The notes under the pieces are model-generated. The model was not told where the DNA came from. It saw only the letters and a list, made by a program, of their open reading frames with translations, and did not search any database. From contig LLKB01000001.1 of the NCBI GenBank assembly GCA_001414325.1, positions 62,001 to 126,000 of the forward strand: DNA of 64,000 nucleotides, in the 5' to 3' direction. Positions within the stretch are counted from its first letter, which is position 1; each line of letters starts with the position of its first letter. Source of the stretch: Butyribacter intestini. Lineage in GTDB: Bacteria > Bacillota > Clostridia > Lachnospirales > Lachnospiraceae. A program made the translations under genes and the position numbers. Of this stretch, positions 39 through 62,281 are shown in pieces.

Positions 39-416
39 ATGAATGGAATAAATAGGATGCGTAGACAAGATTTTCTAAACAATTTTTGGGGATACTACTT
101 AATGCTTGAGAAAAAATTAATGACTACATTTAATTATGTAGAGTTATCTACTTCAAATTTTTCTACATTTTCAAATGAATATGCCTTATTAATACAAAGT
201 ATTGGTGCAGAATTAGACTCTTTCTTTAAGCTATACTGCTCATTTGATTTCAATGAAAGAAAAAACATTTCTCACTATGCTAATGTAATATTAGATAATG
301 AACCTGATATTGTTAATATTGAGCTTAATATCTTATCAAAACAGCTTTCAATTAAGCCATTTGAATCATGGTCGCTGAATCATCGTAAGCGCAAAAAACT
401 CAGGCGTACATTATAA
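39..416 (+). pseudogene. N-terminal fragment of an unknown gene cut by IS66
   Basis: The reading frame is open from near the window edge, but only codons up to about position 384 are native. The last ten residues (RKRKKLRRTL) are read out of the IS66 terminal repeat that begins at 385. The native part is an alpha-helical-looking, acidic-to-neutral protein with no motif I can name; it ends in PFESWSLNH. There is no clear Shine-Dalgarno in front of the first ATG, and the true start may be another codon nearby or outside the window. I infer that it is the beheaded 5' part of a longer gene whose 3' part is no longer next to the insertion sequence, because the other flank of IS66 belongs to an unrelated toxin gene. 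Function unknown. Confidence 0.55.
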
Positions 417-466
417 AATAACTTAGCATAAATATTATTTTACTCTTTATGCTAAGTTATTTTTTT
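417..466 (-). terminator. Hairpin terminator at the tnpC end of IS66
   Basis: AACTTAGCATAAA and TTTATGCTAAGTT form a 13-bp stem around an AT loop, with A-rich and T-rich flanks on the two sides. It lies just beyond the tnpC stop and would work in either direction. Confidence 0.75.
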
Positions 467-472
467 CTTTAT

Positions 473-2086
473 CTATCTTTCGATTTTACATATTTCAAAA
501 ACTTTATCATTCCATGGTAACAGCTTTTCTAATTCACTGTCTGCCATTTCTTCAGTAGGTCGTTTCTCTAATACATATGTTATATATTTATATACATTTA
601 ATCCATTCGCTAATGCTGTTTCGGCTATGCTATATGATATGGCACTTGCCTCTGCACCTTCAGGACTGTCACTGAAAAGCCATCCCTTTCTACCTATAAC
701 ATATGATTTCATTTTCTGTTCACTTAAATTATTACTCAGACTGCAGCGACAATCTTCGAGATATGTCATCATATGTTCTTTTCTATTTAATGCATATGTA
801 ACTGCTGTGGCAAATTTACTGCCTTTAATGGGTTTCTGCTTTTCAAGCCATGACAAAAAAGCCTCAATTACCGGTTTTTCTTTCTTGAGACGACCATTTT
901 TTATCTGTTTGTATGAATAACCTTTTTCTTTAAAATGTCTTTCATATGCAAACAGCTTATCACAATACTCTACACCTTGCACCGCCGGACAACTGATATC
1001 ACGATTTTTCCCTTTAGGTATGGCATCAAAGAAATATCTTCTTATGTGTGCAAAACAGCAACAGCGTTTTATATCCTGCACTTTGTTATAGCCTGTATAA
1101 CCATCTGCCATAAGATATCCATTAAAACCTTTCAGAAATTCTTTCGCAACATCTCCTCTACGCGTTGATGCATATTTATACAAAACTATCGGTGGGGTAT
1201 CATCTTCGCCGCTTCTAAATAGCCACATATATGATTTTGCCGTTGCTTCGCGTCCCTCCTCTTTCAAAACCTGTATAGGGCTTTCATCTGCCATAGCAAA
1301 CTCTCTGCTTAACAGCAGTTTGTGGTAAAATTCGTACAATACACGCAGATACTTATCGGTACATTCTATAACCCAGTTAGCCATTGTTGCACGGCTAAGT
1401 TCAAAACCATACTGCAGCCAGTCTTTTTCCTGACGGTACAATGGCATCCCATTAACATATTTTGAGTAAATCACCCAGGCAACAATTGATGGCGATGCAT
1501 AGCTTCTGAGTAGTGCCGGTGGAACAGGAGCATGTATAATATTTGGTTTTTCCTCATCTATTTTACATTTTGGACAACCATAATGTACACTGACATATTC
1601 CACAACTTTTAAAGTTGCAGGTATGTATTCAAGTTCCTTGCGCACAGTCTCTTTTCCTATAACTTCTAAGTGTGTACCGCATATGGAGCAAATCTGTTCT
1701 TCTTCTGGTAAAGTAATCTCTCTGATTTCAACCGGAAGATTTTTGGTTTTCTCAGCAAAAGTAACTTTTTTCTTTCTTATATGCTTTTTTACGACTATCT
1801 CTTCTTCAGCTGCCGGTAATTCTTCAATTGTTTCATCTGATTCATCGGAAAGATTAAATGATAATTGTCCATCTGTCTGCTGCTCCATTTTTTCACGTGA
1901 TGAACCAAACAGTTTTCTTTTCATATAATCAATCTGTTCATTAAGAAGTTTGACCTGAACAGTCAACTCCTGAACCTGAATATTACTGATATTTAAAGCT
2001 GACTGGAGAGTTTTGTTTAACTCTCTCTGTTCATTAAGTGAATCTTTTAATTCCCTTATCAATATATCTTTTGCATCAACAGACAT
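473..2086 (-). CDS. tnpC: IS66 transposase TnpC (DDE)
   Basis: DDE transposase of the IS66 family, about 537 residues. The ATG at 2086 is chosen because GGAGGAAAATCTG precedes it; an upstream ATG at 2113 would add nine residues (numbering here counts from that longer form). It has an N-terminal coiled coil ending in the family signature KRKLFGSSREK (about 66-75), a four-Cys zinc finger (C142, C145, C180, C183), and a catalytic core with D276 in ADESPIQ, D337 in MADGYTGY and E465 in NNLSEQK. The C-terminal part contains the GRKGWLFSDSPEGA block typical of the family. The gene looks full length and the triad is present, so it may be active. Confidence 0.95.
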   Translation of the reverse strand: MSVDAKDILIRELKDSLNEQRELNKTLQSALNISNIQVQELTVQVKLLNEQIDYMKRKLFGSSREKMEQQTDGQLSFNLSDESDETIEELPAAEEEIVVKKHIRKKKVTFAEKTKNLPVEIREITLPEEEQICSICGTHLEVIGKETVRKELEYIPATLKVVEYVSVHYGCPKCKIDEEKPNIIHAPVPPALLRSYASPSIVAWVIYSKYVNGMPLYRQEKDWLQYGFELSRATMANWVIECTDKYLRVLYEFYHKLLLSREFAMADESPIQVLKEEGREATAKSYMWLFRSGEDDTPPIVLYKYASTRRGDVAKEFLKGFNGYLMADGYTGYNKVQDIKRCCCFAHIRRYFFDAIPKGKNRDISCPAVQGVEYCDKLFAYERHFKEKGYSYKQIKNGRLKKEKPVIEAFLSWLEKQKPIKGSKFATAVTYALNRKEHMMTYLEDCRCSLSNNLSEQKMKSYVIGRKGWLFSDSPEGAEASAISYSIAETALANGLNVYKYITYVLEKRPTEEMADSELEKLLPWNDKVFEICKIER

Positions 2087-2173
2087 CAGATTTTCCTCCA
2101 CGATTTGATACAATTATTATAACATATCTTAGAGTAAAAAGATAGCTGTAATGCCTGTTTTTATGGGGTTGAT

Positions 2174-2524
2174 TCATTTTTTAACAGGTGGTTTTATCGC
2201 TTTTGGCTGTTCTATTTCAAGACCATCCATAAGCCACTCAAACTGTTTCCATGTAAGACTTTTTACTTCATTTTGATTGCGTGGCCATTTATAGCTGCCT
2301 GAACCTGTAAGTCGTTTATATAATAAAACTATGCCATCTTTTTCACGATATATTGCTTTTATGCGGTCTTTTTTTCTGCCACAAAATAGAAAGATGCTGT
2401 TCTCATGTGGATTCATTTTAAGTTGTTCTTCTATTATTGCGCATAAGCCATCGATCTGTTTTCTCATATCTGTTCTGCCACAGACTATGTAAACATTGTC
2501 CAGAGCAGATATATCCCCTAACAT
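2174..2524 (-). CDS. tnpB: IS66 accessory protein TnpB (IS66 Orf2)
   Basis: A 116-residue TnpB protein, required with TnpA and TnpC for transposition of IS66-type elements although its biochemical role is poorly defined. The family signature is clear: VCGRTDMRKQIDGL near the N-terminus, then FLFCGRKKDRIKAIYREKDG and LLYKRL. The start is supported by AGGAGGTCTC just before the ATG. Its start overlaps the stop of tnpA by 7 bp, which suggests translational coupling. Length is normal for the family. Confidence 0.95.
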   Translation of the reverse strand: MLGDISALDNVYIVCGRTDMRKQIDGLCAIIEEQLKMNPHENSIFLFCGRKKDRIKAIYREKDGIVLLYKRLTGSGSYKWPRNQNEVKSLTWKQFEWLMDGLEIEQPKAIKPPVKK

Positions 2525-2913
2525 GAGACCTCCTGTAATACAGTGAGAAGTCCTTTTAATGTGTGTTCATTAAAATCATCCTGGAGTGTTATGCTTGCAT
2601 TTTTATATTTAAACATAATAGGTGCTATCTGTGTATCATTTTCTTCCGCAAACAATGTTATGTTTTCTGCTGCTTCTGGTAACACATTTACACAGACAAC
2701 ATCCTGTTTTTCAGTAACTATATTAGTGTTACATTTGAAACTGTGTTCTGGTATCTCATAGCAGGCCTGTTGTCTGAGCTTTTTAATCCACCAATAAAAT
2801 GTACTTGGTGCAATATCATTATTAATACACCATTGCTTATCTGACAAACCGCTCTTACGGCACTGCATGACAAGACCATAAATTTTATCATAGTATAATT
2901 TTTTATCTGCCAT
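2518..2913 (-). CDS. tnpA: IS66 accessory protein TnpA
   Basis: A 131-residue TnpA with a helix-turn-helix at the N-terminus (YGLVMQCRKSGLSDKQWCIN...STFYWWIKKLR), which presumably recognises DNA. The start at 2913 is preferred over an ATG at 2958 because GCGAGGAGAAAATAT stands directly in front of it. The C-terminal half is variable, as in other TnpA proteins. It overlaps tnpB, so the three genes form one transcription unit running away from the right end of the element. Confidence 0.9.
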   Translation of the reverse strand: MADKKLYYDKIYGLVMQCRKSGLSDKQWCINNDIAPSTFYWWIKKLRQQACYEIPEHSFKCNTNIVTEKQDVVCVNVLPEAAENITLFAEENDTQIAPIMFKYKNASITLQDDFNEHTLKGLLTVLQEVSC

Positions 2914-3073
2914 ATATTTTCTCCTCGCTTTTTGTAATGTTATAGTAAACGGCTCCAATATTGAATAAGAAACTTCAAGATTACTGGAGTGAACGTTTCC
3001 AATTTTTGAGACAATCTAATTATGGCATAATATTTTTTAATGTGCTATCCGTGGGGATATTTTGCGCTTACTA

Positions 3074-11190: not shown

Positions 11191-11304
11191 TTAATCACTC
11201 CATTCTGAATAAAATGCATACAATGGTTTTCATACTTGTAATTGGATTATACCATGCAGTGTAGAGCGAGTAAATAAAGTTATTTTGATATCACATCAGT
11301 TTCT

Positions 11305-11488
11305 GTAACAGTTCAGCCTTTCATTTCTTACATTCATAAACCTGCCAGCGAGCTGTCAGTCGCTGCTTTGCAGCTTTTGTATATTTCATTTCAGAAATGA
11401 AAGGCTATTCTACCATAAAAAGGTACTTAACAATACAATGAACAAGCTCATTGTATTGCCAATTATCTTTTTATGGCTGAACTGTTAC
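11305..11488. repeat. Repeat family 1, full copy A (perfect 14-bp inverted ends)
   Basis: 184 bp bounded by GTAACAGTTCAGCC and GGCTGAACTGTTAC. Inside are two further hairpins: one using AGCCTTTCATTTC with GAAATGAAAGGCT, the other CCATAAAAAG...CTTTTTATGG enclosing ACAATGAACAAGCTCATTGT. It is nearly identical to 20367-20549 and related to partial copies at 33222 and 46113. No coding potential. It lies between the secreted protein and the blaI promoter and fills much of this 615-bp gap. Confidence 0.9.
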
Positions 11489-11572
11489 CAGTTTCTTGAT
11501 ACAAATAGTTAAAAAGTAAAATTTCATATTCAGGATTTGTGTTTTGCCAAAACTTTAAATTGCAAAAAAACA

Positions 11573-17509: not shown

Positions 17510-17543
17510 GTGGCTGCTAAACTCATTGTAGGCTGTGTTAATT

Positions 17544-17580
17544 GCACAATTTAATAATAGATAATGATAGTTTCACAAAT
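17544..17580. repeat. Repeat family 2, core copy between cysW and cysA
   Basis: GCACAATTTAAT followed by TAG, ATGATAGTTT and CACAAAT matches the cores at 55741-55776 and, in part, 25972-26006. It lies inside the operon, between cysW and cysA. Confidence 0.6.
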
Positions 17581-17620
17581 TTCTAAATAGTCAGTAGTAT
17601 GAAAGAAGTGAGGTATAAGT

Positions 17621-20173: not shown

Positions 20174-20366
20174 AATATTCCTCATTTCTTATATCAATTT
20201 ATGTGTTTATGAAATTAACACAACATATGATTAGTTTTGCAATTCACCAAATATAGTATTTGTCATGCTCTTTTTAAATATCCATTTTTATGGTATGTTA
20301 TCATAATTGGATGTGCTTGTTTTTCTCTGAAATTTATTTTAACACAAATTTGGTTATAAAAAAATT

Positions 20367-20549
20367 GTAACAGTTCAGCCTTTCATTTCTTACATTCATA
20401 AACCTGCCAGCGAGCTGTCAGTCGCTGCTTTGCAGCTTATGTTTACTCATTTCAGAAAGGAAAGGCTATTCTACCATAAAAAGGTACTTAACAATACAAT
20501 GAACAAGCTCATTGTATTGCCAATTATCTTTTTATGGCTGAACTGTTAC
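20367..20549. repeat. Repeat family 1, full copy B
   Basis: 183 bp with the same perfect ends GTAACAGTTCAGCC/GGCTGAACTGTTAC as 11305-11488 and only a few substitutions in the middle. Located in the gap between the aldehyde dehydrogenase and tRNA-Gly. Confidence 0.9.
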
Positions 20550-20577
20550 AAAAAATTTAAAAAAAATTAAATTTCCT

Positions 20578-20622: not shown

Positions 20623-20693
20623 GCGGGTGTAGTTCAATGGTAGAACACCAGCCTTCCAAGCTGGATACGTGGGTTCGATTCCCATCACCCGCT
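20623..20693 (+). tRNA. tRNA-Gly (TCC)
   Basis: Acceptor arms GCGGGTG/CACCCGC pair fully; D arm GTTCAATGGTAGAAC, anticodon arm CCAGCCTTCCAAGCTGG with TCC, T arm GTGGGTTCGATTCCCAT. No CCA encoded. A T-run follows. Confidence 0.97.
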
Positions 20694-25944: not shown

Positions 25945-26006
25945 TTGCGAAACTCACTATTTATTATATTTGCACAATTTAATTATAGCTTACAAGAGTT
26001 TCGCAA
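25945..26006. repeat. Repeat family 2, complete copy between regulator and kinase
   Basis: 62 bp with perfect 11-bp inverted ends TTGCGAAACTC/GAGTTTCGCAA and the inner core TTGCACAATTTAAT. Inserted into the gap between the two genes of a two-component pair. Confidence 0.75.
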
Positions 26007-26043
26007 AAGTTTAATTGTAGAAGAAGTAGAAATGAGGGATAAA

Positions 26044-27368: not shown

Positions 27369-27557
27369 ATGGCATCACCCTCCTTTGTAAACCAGAGGGC
27401 ATCTAATATCAGAAAATCACATCCTGCTTTCATTTCAATTATACATTGGAAGTATAACATATTAAGCGAATATTCGCAATCCGCTCTGTTATTTATTCCT
27501 AAAGTGACAATATTGTCATTTAAAAGTCACCCTGTTGTAATTTATATATGTTAAATT

Positions 27558-27717
27558 GGTATCATAAATTTGTGCATGTATTTTGCACATAGTAAAGTTG
27601 CGAAGCAACTTTCAATATGAGTCCTTTTGGACTCATGGTATCATAAATTTGTGCATGTAATTTGCACACTATGAAGTTGCGAAGCAACTTCTAATATGAA
27701 CGCAAATGCGTTCATGA
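27558..27717. repeat. Two 79-bp tandem repeats with hairpins
   Basis: Units start with GGTATCATAAATTTGTGCATG at 27558 and 27637 (and a third partial start, GATATCATGAAG, at 27716). Each holds the hairpin AAGTTGCGAAGCAACTT and a second hairpin whose sequence differs but pairs in both units: ATGAGTCC TTTT GGACTCAT and ATGAACGC AAAT GCGTTCAT. They lie in the leader or promoter zone of the ABC exporter. Confidence 0.8.
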
Positions 27718-33221: not shown

Positions 33222-33341
33222 TGCAGCTTGTGTTTACTTCATTTCATAAATGAAAGGCTATTCCGCCACAAAAAACAAGTCAATAATACATTGAGCAAGC
33301 TCATGTATTATTGACTTATCTTTTTTGGGCTGAACTGTTAC
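33222..33341. repeat. Repeat family 1, right-half copy C
   Basis: Aligns with copies A and B from TGCAGCTT to the end GGCTGAACTGTTAC (33328-33341). The central stem differs from A/B (AAGTCAATAATACAT...ATGTATTATTGACTT) but pairs as well. The left end is missing. Fills most of the gap before the amino-acid transporter. Confidence 0.8.
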
Positions 33342-45579: not shown

Positions 45580-45596
45580 TATATATGGAGGAAAAA

Positions 45597-46163
45597 ATGT
45601 TTTCTTGGATTACAGATTTAGATATAAATATACTATATTATATACAGGGGCATTTTAGAAATGAGTTATTAAACAGCATTGTAAAAGTATTCACATCTTT
45701 AGGAAATTATGGACTGATATGGATATTGTTGACGATTTTTCTTTTGGTTTGCAAAAAGACAAGAAAGACTGGAATCGTATGTGCTATTGCACTCATAATC
45801 GATCTGGTGATATGCAATGGAATATTAAAAAATATATTTGCAAGAACAAGACCTTATGATGCCTATAAGGATATAAGATGTCTTATAGAGCCACAGCCAG
45901 ACTATTCATTTCCGTCCGGGCATACTGCAAGTTCATTTGCTGCAGTAGTGCCAATACTGGCTGACAGAAATACAAGACGGCTTGGAATAGTGGTTCTCGT
46001 GGTTGCAATACTCATGGCTTTGTCGAGAATATATGTATGTGTGCATTATCCGAGTGATGTTTTAGCGGGTGTTATCGTTGGAATATTTTGTGGAGTGCTC
46101 GCCTGTATGTGCTATAAAATGAAAGGCTATTCCGCCCCAAAAAACAAGTCAATAATACATTGA
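45597..46163 (+). CDS. PAP2-family membrane phosphatase
   Basis: 188 residues from ATG 45597 (GGAGGAAAAA upstream). Five or six membrane helices and the three phosphatase motifs: KNIFARTRP (KX6RP), PSGHTASSF (PSGH) and SRIYVCVHYPSDV (SRX5HX3D). Probably dephosphorylates undecaprenyl diphosphate or another lipid phosphate. The last fourteen residues, MKGYSAPKNKSIIH, are encoded by a partial family 1 repeat (46113-46211), so the native C-terminus has been replaced; all catalytic residues lie before it. Confidence 0.9.
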   Translation: MFSWITDLDINILYYIQGHFRNELLNSIVKVFTSLGNYGLIWILLTIFLLVCKKTRKTGIVCAIALIIDLVICNGILKNIFARTRPYDAYKDIRCLIEPQPDYSFPSGHTASSFAAVVPILADRNTRRLGIVVLVVAILMALSRIYVCVHYPSDVLAGVIVGIFCGVLACMCYKMKGYSAPKNKSIIH

Positions 46164-46211
46164 GCAAGCTCATGTATTATTGACTTATCTTTTTTAGGGC
46201 TGAACTGTTAC
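46113..46211. repeat. Repeat family 1, right-half copy D
   Basis: Nearly identical to copy C, ends in GGCTGAACTGTTAC at 46198-46211. Its first 50 bp form the end of the PAP2 coding sequence including the stop TGA. Confidence 0.85.
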
Positions 46212-55712: not shown

Positions 55713-55740
55713 TATTGTTTAGCTATGCTGTGTTATAGCT

Positions 55741-55776
55741 GCACAATTTAATCGTAGGTTATGATAGTTTTGCAAA
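55741..55776. repeat. Repeat family 2, core copy
   Basis: GCACAATTTAATCGTAGGTT then ATGATAGTTTTGCAAAT, the same core as 17544-17580. Confidence 0.6.
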
Positions 55777-55851
55777 TACCTGCAAATGTGCATAAATAAA
55801 AGGTGTAAAAGTTCTTTATATTGTGTTATCATCATATAAATATTTAAATGA

Positions 55852-55931
55852 TTGCGAAACAGGTTATATGTTGTGTTCATTACAGATTATGATAGTAAGA
55901 AATGCAAGGCTGAACTGTTATAGTTTCGCAA
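55852..55931. repeat. Repeat family 2, second form, with a family 1 end inside
   Basis: 80 bp with ends TTGCGAAAC/GTTTCGCAA. Near its right side is AAGGCTGAACTGTTA (55906-55920), which matches the right end of repeat family 1. It lies directly before the CtpA-type gene leader and, with the core copy above, fills the 332-bp gap. Confidence 0.65.
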
Positions 55932-59440: not shown

Positions 59441-59470
59441 TATATACGGTATTGAGAATTTTACAATGGA

Positions 59471-59600
59471 GATTTTTGATAAGAAATTTTGACGGTTTCA
59501 TAGTGAAGTTTTTTGATAAGAGATTTTGACAGTTTTGCAGTGAATGATTTTTATAAGAGATTTTTTTAAGACTTTGCGGTGTAGTTTTTTGATAAGGAAA
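59471..59600 (+). repeat. 38-bp tandem repeats upstream of the beta-galactosidase
   Basis: Three and a half imperfect units starting at 59471, 59508, 59546 and 59584, of the form GTTTTTTGATAAGAGATTTT then GACAGTTTTGCAGTGAA. The last unit supplies the ribosome-binding site. Confidence 0.7.
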
Positions 59601-61834: not shown

Positions 61835-62176
61835 ATGCAGATAAGTGGTATCAATGGAATGAACAATATCAGCAGTATATATACATATGGAAATTCACAT
61901 TTTAACCAGATACAGAACAATCCTGTTACTCCGGTAACAAAGGTTAAAAGCACACAGCCTGTTGATGGCGAACAGGACAAGTCAAAATATGCTGTTGTTT
62001 ATGGAAATGATAAGACAAGTGAGACATATGACACTAAAGAAGCAGATGAAGTCAGGTCAAAATATGCAGATGCACAGAATGTCTCATATAATAATACAAA
62101 CAATCCATATGAGATTTCAAAGATGGAAAGAGACAGCATGATATTATCCGGAATGAATTTTGATGAGTATGCATAG
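61835..62176 (+). CDS. Small hydrophilic protein of unknown function
   Basis: 113 residues from ATG 61835 with AAGGAG upstream (an in-frame ATG nine bases earlier lacks a site). Begins MQISGINGMNNISSIYTYG, then an Asn/Thr-rich, probably disordered region with two SKYA words, and ends MERDSMILSGMNFDEYA. No signal peptide or membrane helix. Family not recognised. The stop codon lies in the first unit of a 13-bp tandem repeat. Confidence 0.6.
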   Translation: MQISGINGMNNISSIYTYGNSHFNQIQNNPVTPVTKVKSTQPVDGEQDKSKYAVVYGNDKTSETYDTKEADEVRSKYADAQNVSYNNTNNPYEISKMERDSMILSGMNFDEYA

Positions 62177-62259
62177 CAAACATGCATAGCAAATATGCAT
62201 AGCAAGTATGCATAGCAAACATGCATAGCAAGTATGCATAGCAAACATGCATAATAAGT
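62169..62259 (+). repeat. Seven 13-bp tandem repeats
   Basis: ATGCATAGCAAAC-type units follow each other without spacers, positions 11-13 varying between AAC, AAT and AGT; the last unit is ATGCATAATAAGT. Each holds the palindrome ATGCAT. Between two unrelated small genes; the last unit ends 23 bp before the next ATG. Confidence 0.95.
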
Positions 62260-62281
62260 ATTAAACAGGAGGAATTATCGC

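Follow-up and report, generated by a model that had tools for sequence, protein, structure and literature searches.

The repeat that recurs in the window analysed here (the whole 64,000-nucleotide stretch of the Butyribacter intestini genome, positions 62,001 to 126,000 of contig LLKB01000001.1) is very probably a MITE of an ISBst12-like element of the IS66 family. It is short and transposase-less, is bounded by inverted ends and by a target duplication of fixed length, occurs in many copies and has counterpart empty sites, and its ends are common to an autonomous element present in relatives, with none found in the window's own genome. A sequence-only reading had left the choice between a mobile DNA hairpin and an RNA; the former is borne out by the target duplications, by the empty sites and by an autonomous element of relatives whose ends are identical.

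Copies of the repeat in the window, with their ends, flanking duplications and predicted arms.
Feature	Position	Strand	Remarks
Full MITE copy, subfamily A	11305..11488 (184 bp)	+	exact 14-bp ends
Left target-site duplication CAGTTTCT of the 11305 copy	11297..11304	.	0 mismatches
Right target-site duplication CAGTTTCT of the 11305 copy	11489..11496	.	0 mismatches
Left 14-bp terminal inverted repeat of the 11305 copy	11305..11318	+	
Right 14-bp terminal inverted repeat of the 11305 copy	11475..11488	-	
Left arm of the predicted fold: outer stem and two small hairpins	11315..11406	+	similar layout in other genera
Right arm of the predicted fold: long hairpin, tip GAACAAGCTC	11413..11476	+	
Full MITE copy, subfamily A	20367..20549 (183 bp)	+	exact ends, duplication
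Left target-site duplication AAAAAATT of the 20367 copy	20359..20366	.	0 mismatches
Right target-site duplication AAAAAATT of the 20367 copy	20550..20557	.	0 mismatches
5'-truncated MITE copy, subfamily B	33222..33341	+	
5'-truncated MITE copy, subfamily B	46117..46211	+	ends ORF 45585-46163
Remnant of MITE left end	55887..55921	-	one mismatch in terminal repeat

The two full copies in the window, correctly described by the sequence-only reading as having perfect inverted ends, terminate exactly in GTAACAGTTCAGCC and GGCTGAACTGTTAC (14 bp), and no ORF of at least 100 aa overlaps either of them. That reading overlooked a fifth copy, the minus-strand end remnant, and the perfect 8-bp duplications CAGTTTCT and AAAAAATT around the full copies. 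The copies that it placed at 33222 and 46113 as right halves are real (the second starts at 46117) but are 5'-truncated members of subfamily B: aligned with the full copy L129:18530-18713, the first shows a single mismatch over 120 columns and the second a single gap over 95. The inner stem is built on ACAATGA/TCATTGT in subfamily A and on AATAATACAT/ATGTATTATT in subfamily B and, because complete subfamily B copies are present elsewhere in the own genome, the contrast lies between subfamilies and not, as had been proposed, between full and half copies. A location in or next to intergenic space does not hold purely for the copy at 46117, whose positions 46117-46163 supply the last codons and the stop of the ORF. 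The second full copy lies 73 bp upstream of a tRNA gene (20623-20693). The window also holds other dispersed repeats, namely TGCACAATTTAAT...GTTTCGCAAA (17539-17586, 25967-26014 and 55736-55783) and an inverted pair (20210-20254 with 55840-55884), a member of which lies about 110 bp to the left of the 20367 copy, as well as three tandem arrays (62153-62269, 59452-59562 and 27557-27714, with periods of 13, 37 and 79 bases).

Copies are not confined to the contig of the window. Allowing one mismatch, the 14-mer end occurs 256 times in the own genome, compared with a single occurrence of the reversed pattern used as control, and a similarity search, in which 40 of 220 candidates were scored, returned 40 full-length matches out of 40 at 89-100% identity. 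About one third of this genome was read in stretches partly picked for the listed ends, and counts from this sample are not genome-wide rates. In these stretches 198 right ends were counted; 51 stayed unpaired under the criterion applied, and none was found to belong to a long element bounded by MITE ends. Among 75 paired elements of 70-330 bp (L148 being counted with two alternative right ends), 57 are flanked by an 8-bp duplication that is either exact (35) or has a single mismatch (22), two show two mismatches and 16 show three to six mismatches, the latter counting against the MITE explanation. Swapping flanks reduced the proportion with at most one mismatch to 0.2%, and, for each remaining length between 4 and 12 bp, exact flanking repeats were seen in 0 or 1 of the 75 elements. 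Joined flanks of 89 elements from all loci, searched against the retrieved DNA for empty sites, gave 79 spanning hits, many of them self-matches of very short elements or hits due to one nested insertion. From four alignments viewed we kept three paralogous empty sites (L117/L135, L054/L124 and L143/L159), in which uninterrupted paralogous sequence of 83-85% identity carries a single target-like sequence that is not perfectly conserved. The fourth alignment, at L145, shows a 99-bp element nested within a further copy of the repeat.

ORFs of 100 aa or more contain none of the 39 elements tested for this, with non-coding DNA amounting to 19% of sampled positions. The neighbors of 38 elements, taken from ORFs and not from curated genes and with the L148 site counted twice, are divergent in 10 cases, tandem in 27 (19 in the same and eight in the opposite orientation) and convergent in one, against 17%, 70% and 13% in the non-coding background. 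Element lengths vary widely: across all loci, those with a duplication at no more than one mismatch measure 29-323 bp, in addition to the autonomous elements of 1812-1835 bp, and the size variants have little in common beyond their ends. Exact 8-bp repeats also flank candidates in the own genome that measure 23, 27 and 49 bp; the two smallest, each recognized by a single good end, could be remnants left by deletion. Four further loci (L171, L189, L334 and L350) hold elements of 29-32 bp, roughly two ends back to back, with 8-bp duplications at no more than one mismatch, suggesting that a transposase of this kind may require very little DNA.

In relatives, the 14-bp ends GTAACAGTTCAGCC bound an IS66-family, ISBst12-like element of 1812-1835 bp with a single ORF. 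Its representative in a genome of the same genus as the window (L085) is 1835 bp long, has the MITE ends and encodes one 485-aa ORF, with no tnpA or tnpB beside it. The transposase matches PF03050 (DDE_Tnp_IS66) at E = 2e-20, its 73.8 bits being above the curated cut-off of 23.1, and reaches 147.8 bits with the NCBIfam IS66 transposase model NF033517, below the cut-off of 180; by the latter score, the element would be classed as a divergent IS66 member or as a sister group. Scanning named genomes for this transposase gave 20 loci, of which 13 have both ends within three mismatches and seven at most one acceptable end (L248, L249, L250, L252, L253, L257 and L258). One of the 13, L247, starts at the locus edge and its duplication was not assessable. 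Eight of the remaining 12 combine a perfect 8-bp duplication with exact ends on both sides (L239, L240, L241, L242, L244, L246, L251 and L254), and no target duplication was found at L243, L245 (the same IS as L085), L255 and L256 (only 441 bp). In Sporofaciens musculi the IS and the MITE coexist: its 45 ends form six pairs of about 1.8 kb, ten of 144 bp, one of 142 bp and one of 101 bp, leaving nine unpaired, and nine of ten short elements have a duplication at no more than one mismatch. Sequence common to the MITE and this IS is limited to about 16-22 bp at the ends, so that the former is not a simple internal deletion of the latter.

A transposase source closer at hand would be the IS66-type element that occupies positions 385-3071 of the window, with TnpC (473-2113) and TnpB (2174-2524) both on the minus strand. 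It belongs to the same transposase family (PF03050, E = 1.6e-83), and IS66 elements are reported with 8-bp repeats in the available text of PMC11946415. Its ends, GTAAGCGCAAAAAACTCAGG and GTAAGCGCAAAATATCCCCA, begin however with GTAAGCGC and not with GTAACAGTTCAGCC, and its flanks lack a matching 8-bp duplication; moreover, two copy-rich genomes, G013 and G015 (63% and 88% complete), gave no PF03050 match. We rejected it on account of the differing ends and consider it most improbable that this element mobilizes the repeat. The other IS66 genes of the own genome (PF03050) likewise have ends that differ from those of the MITE, and the transposase of the ISBst12-like element has no match there at E ≤ 1e-5.

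The exact 14-mer was found in 57 of 299 genomes of the family, the own genome included, with one hit for the reversed pattern; these genomes represent one per genus with one exception, so that 57 of 298 genera carry the end. From the mostly Lachnospiraceae names of the IS-bearing relatives we infer that the family in question is the Lachnospiraceae. The IS transposase is much rarer, with matches at E ≤ 1e-20 in 13 of the 299 genomes, most of them distant. Eleven genomes have at least 20 exact ends (G000, G043, G069, G078, G107, G114, G130, G211, G270, G307 and G323), and close transposase relatives, as fragments, were detected in only G069 (83% identity) and G270 (74%), lying 233 and 318 bp, respectively, from an exact end; G078 has a distant relative (31% identity) and the other eight have none at E ≤ 1e-20. 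PF03050 is matched in 15 of 28 end-rich relatives, and none of 26 IS66 loci from such relatives (L197-L222) has both MITE ends within three mismatches, a test that L085 passed. With a close transposase in so few of the end-rich genomes, many MITE populations seem to be orphans, to depend on incoming IS copies or to be served by another enzyme. The count of two genomes in eleven slightly lowers our confidence in the MITE explanation, against which the copy-rich but incomplete G013 and G015, in which PF03050 is missing, also count.

The first full copy folds far better than its shuffles (z = -10.4 and -11.0 on the two strands), much of this being due to the ends. Folds were also computed after removal of the ends, in 32 elements: 20 from paired ends, ten chosen for their duplication and the two window copies. 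The 20 include 15 with a duplication at no more than one mismatch, the exceptions being L268, L269, L283, L286 and L287. Twenty-six of the 32, which fall into 14 clusters by interior sequence, surpass 99 or more of their 100 dinucleotide shuffles in folding, a level not attained by L185, L196, L277, L279, L282 and L283. Of five measures of covariation, one stays at the level of its shuffles both among the own copies and among elements of other genera. In 59 own copies, both partners vary in eight of 48 pairs (67 cells compared with 22.6 in shuffles), with no excess of further pair types (19 vs 18.8); in ten elements of other genera, the same holds for seven of 22 pairs, again with further pair types at shuffle level (14 vs 13.5). 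A structure-fitted alignment (A4), which leans to structure and includes hits up to E = 1, raises this to 17 of 22 pairs and contains one short inner-stem pair with all four Watson-Crick types (16 UA, 5 GC, 4 CG, 3 AU and 1 unpaired). Unpaired letters near the stems are also conserved. A covariance model built from the ten other-genera elements without ends and without own copies (R2) gave four hits in the window at E ≤ 10, the best two being the full copies (E = 0.024, partial, and 2.4), and a model of the own copies (R1), run over 31 loci, recovered only L287 outside the own genus (E = 1.5e-4). The interiors differ in sequence but mostly have strong predicted folds, and one layout recurs across genera with compensatory changes. 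The selection on structure proposed from the sequence alone is plausible: the compensatory changes speak for it and persist in the larger, cross-genus alignment, while the one measure at shuffle level, the possibility of templating and the lack of a plus-strand RNA signature speak against it. Neither a restriction of copies to one contig nor an absence of covariation, both named by the sequence-only reading as grounds for abandoning its proposal, was observed; the remaining one, a match to a known IS or MITE family, applies insofar as a known IS family supplies matching ends.

No Rfam family matches the window copy at gathering thresholds, and to that extent the earlier statement that no named family fits stands, but its ends and its 8-bp duplication suggest a tie to IS66/ISBst12, and sub-threshold matches to the Clostridiales-1 RNA (RF01699) were found among relatives. 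Three of the 17 other-genera loci searched match this model end to end on the minus strand (L272, E = 7.8e-6; L271, E = 3.1e-5; L287, E = 0.011), all below the curated score, with a best value of 37.8 bits against a gathering threshold of 48. In the same low-threshold search, a microRNA model matched the plain hairpin element L284 at E = 3.4e-6 and, as unrelated microRNA models score alike, such E-values alone prove little. The window copy has no RF01699 match at E ≤ 5, and its own low-threshold list consists mostly of microRNA hairpins, which were taken as chance. Conversely, R1 hit no RF01699 element in 35 RF01699 loci, its only match being in L320 outside the RF01699 match, whereas R2 gave six matches at E ≤ 1 in 30 such loci, four at the RF01699 place (E = 0.0089-0.41) and two elsewhere. 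On a two-arm layout common to the MITE and RF01699 the evidence is divided, with L287, L271 and L272 in its favor at modest E-values and the window copy and R1 against it; a link between the two, as judged from sub-threshold scores, is no more than plausible.

RF01699 occurs above cut-off in 130 of the 299 genomes, compared with none of the 14 used as controls. The own genome has five occurrences, none with a MITE end within 1.5 kb. Read beyond the model, RF01699 loci (L288-L319) display inverted ends of their own, GATGCCAGGGTCAAAA...TTTTGACCCCAACATC. Of 46 loci examined, 13 fitted the end patterns (14 rows, L318 appearing twice) and nine of these 13 have target duplications, seven of exactly 7 bp and two more of exactly 8 bp, with neither found at L292, L294, L297 and L306; by rows, eight of 14 are duplicated at 7 bp, compared with 2.2% in the control. 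Because of these inverted ends and duplications, RF01699 looks like a second MITE class, which would be served by another transposase. In Weinberg et al. 2010 (PMC2864571) it appears among the probable RNAs that are not cis-regulatory, and the available text of that paper was found to make no mention of its transposition; no mention of RF01699 was found in the main text of PMC4081043. RF01699 resembles the present elements through the three MITE-ended relatives that match its model and differs in its ends, in its 7-8-bp duplication and in not being matched by the window copy. The broader idea that a Clostridiales-1 superfamily represents one fold-selected nucleic-acid module, spread through the family on at least two kinds of transposon ends and hitch-hiking on unrelated transposases, seems to us unlikely, and we lowered its probability, together with that of an RNA, because microRNA models reached similar E-values and R1 missed RF01699.

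That the repeat is in essence a structured noncoding RNA related to Clostridiales-1, its spread by transposition being secondary, would account for the covariation within the genome and across genera, for the end-to-end matches of the three MITE-ended elements, and for the position of the elements outside ORFs and almost never between convergent genes. We regard it as improbable. RF01699 loci themselves have the inverted ends and duplications of mobile elements, the matches are rivaled by a microRNA model on a plain hairpin and missing for the window copy, and versions without the left arm, as well as those of 23-49 bp, also have duplications. Furthermore, G.U cells do not clearly outnumber A.C cells on the plus strand (20 vs 14 in alignment A1, 4 vs 10 in A3 and 7 vs 17 in A4), which gives no support for a plus-strand RNA; the reverse excess in A3 and A4, from small counts, would agree with the minus strand, on which RF01699 is matched.

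A different doubt concerns the fold and leaves mobility untouched: matched changes on the two arms might be copying errors, produced by template switching within the hairpin of a MITE whose fold is not under selection. This is a real possibility, although we lean against it. Long and nearly perfect arms, mismatch types without clear strand bias, mobile versions devoid of the left arm and the shuffle-level numbers of further pair types are all in keeping with templating, as are apparently chimaeric copies whose left and right halves come from different subfamilies (L150:4577-4759 and L148:11435-11619). It is less easily reconciled with a similar two-arm layout in several genera with little common sequence, with the inner-stem pair that takes all four Watson-Crick types, in an alignment fitted to structure, or with the conserved unpaired letters near the stems.

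We thus favor a MITE in which a gene-less element of about 184 bp would be mobilized in trans by a single-ORF, ISBst12-like IS66 transposase that recognizes the 14-bp GTAACAGTTCAGCC and leaves an 8-bp target duplication. The enzyme presumed to move the copies of the own genome would have been supplied by an IS that has since disappeared or was not found. Between the paired ends, the interior is predicted to fold into two arms. In what is the weakest step of this account, the fold would be maintained as DNA, where it might bring the ends together or reduce insertion damage, or be copied by hairpin templating, rather than serve as a functional RNA.

The IS of the relatives agrees with the ISBst12 group of the IS66 family in having a single ORF with an IS66 domain, ends of the form GTAAC/GTGAC...CAGC and an 8-bp target repeat. 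ISDge4, a transposing member of that group, is described with a single ORF, ends GTGACTACTCAGCA/GTAACTGCTCAGCA and an 8-bp repeat (available text of PMC12898284). The start GTAAGCG given for IS66 ends in PMC11946415, as far as its available text goes, is not that of our IS, which begins with GTAACAG, and ISDge4 of the ISBst12 group also departs from it. The window element differs from this group in lacking a transposase. In size class, inverted ends and presumed mobilization in trans it resembles MITEPsy1 and MITEPsy2, short gene-less elements thought to be moved in trans (PMC3189936), which differ in being tied to ISPsy2 and to a Tn3-family element; in the available text of that paper we found no fold common to several genera for either. 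The literature search returned no paper giving the MITE end as letters and, among the matches listed, no title on such an element.

As a mobile element the repeat is ordinary; its recurring fold and the status of RF01699 are new. The analysis provides a likely mobile partner for a repeat that is very abundant in a family of gut bacteria. It also suggests that RF01699, a catalogued candidate RNA, is a transposable element, whose covariation should then not be taken to prove a cellular RNA; should the module idea turn out to be true, the Rfam entry would stand for a mobile structured module. Recurrence of one fold among elements with little sequence in common offers a testable case of structure being kept, or copied, in a mobile element.
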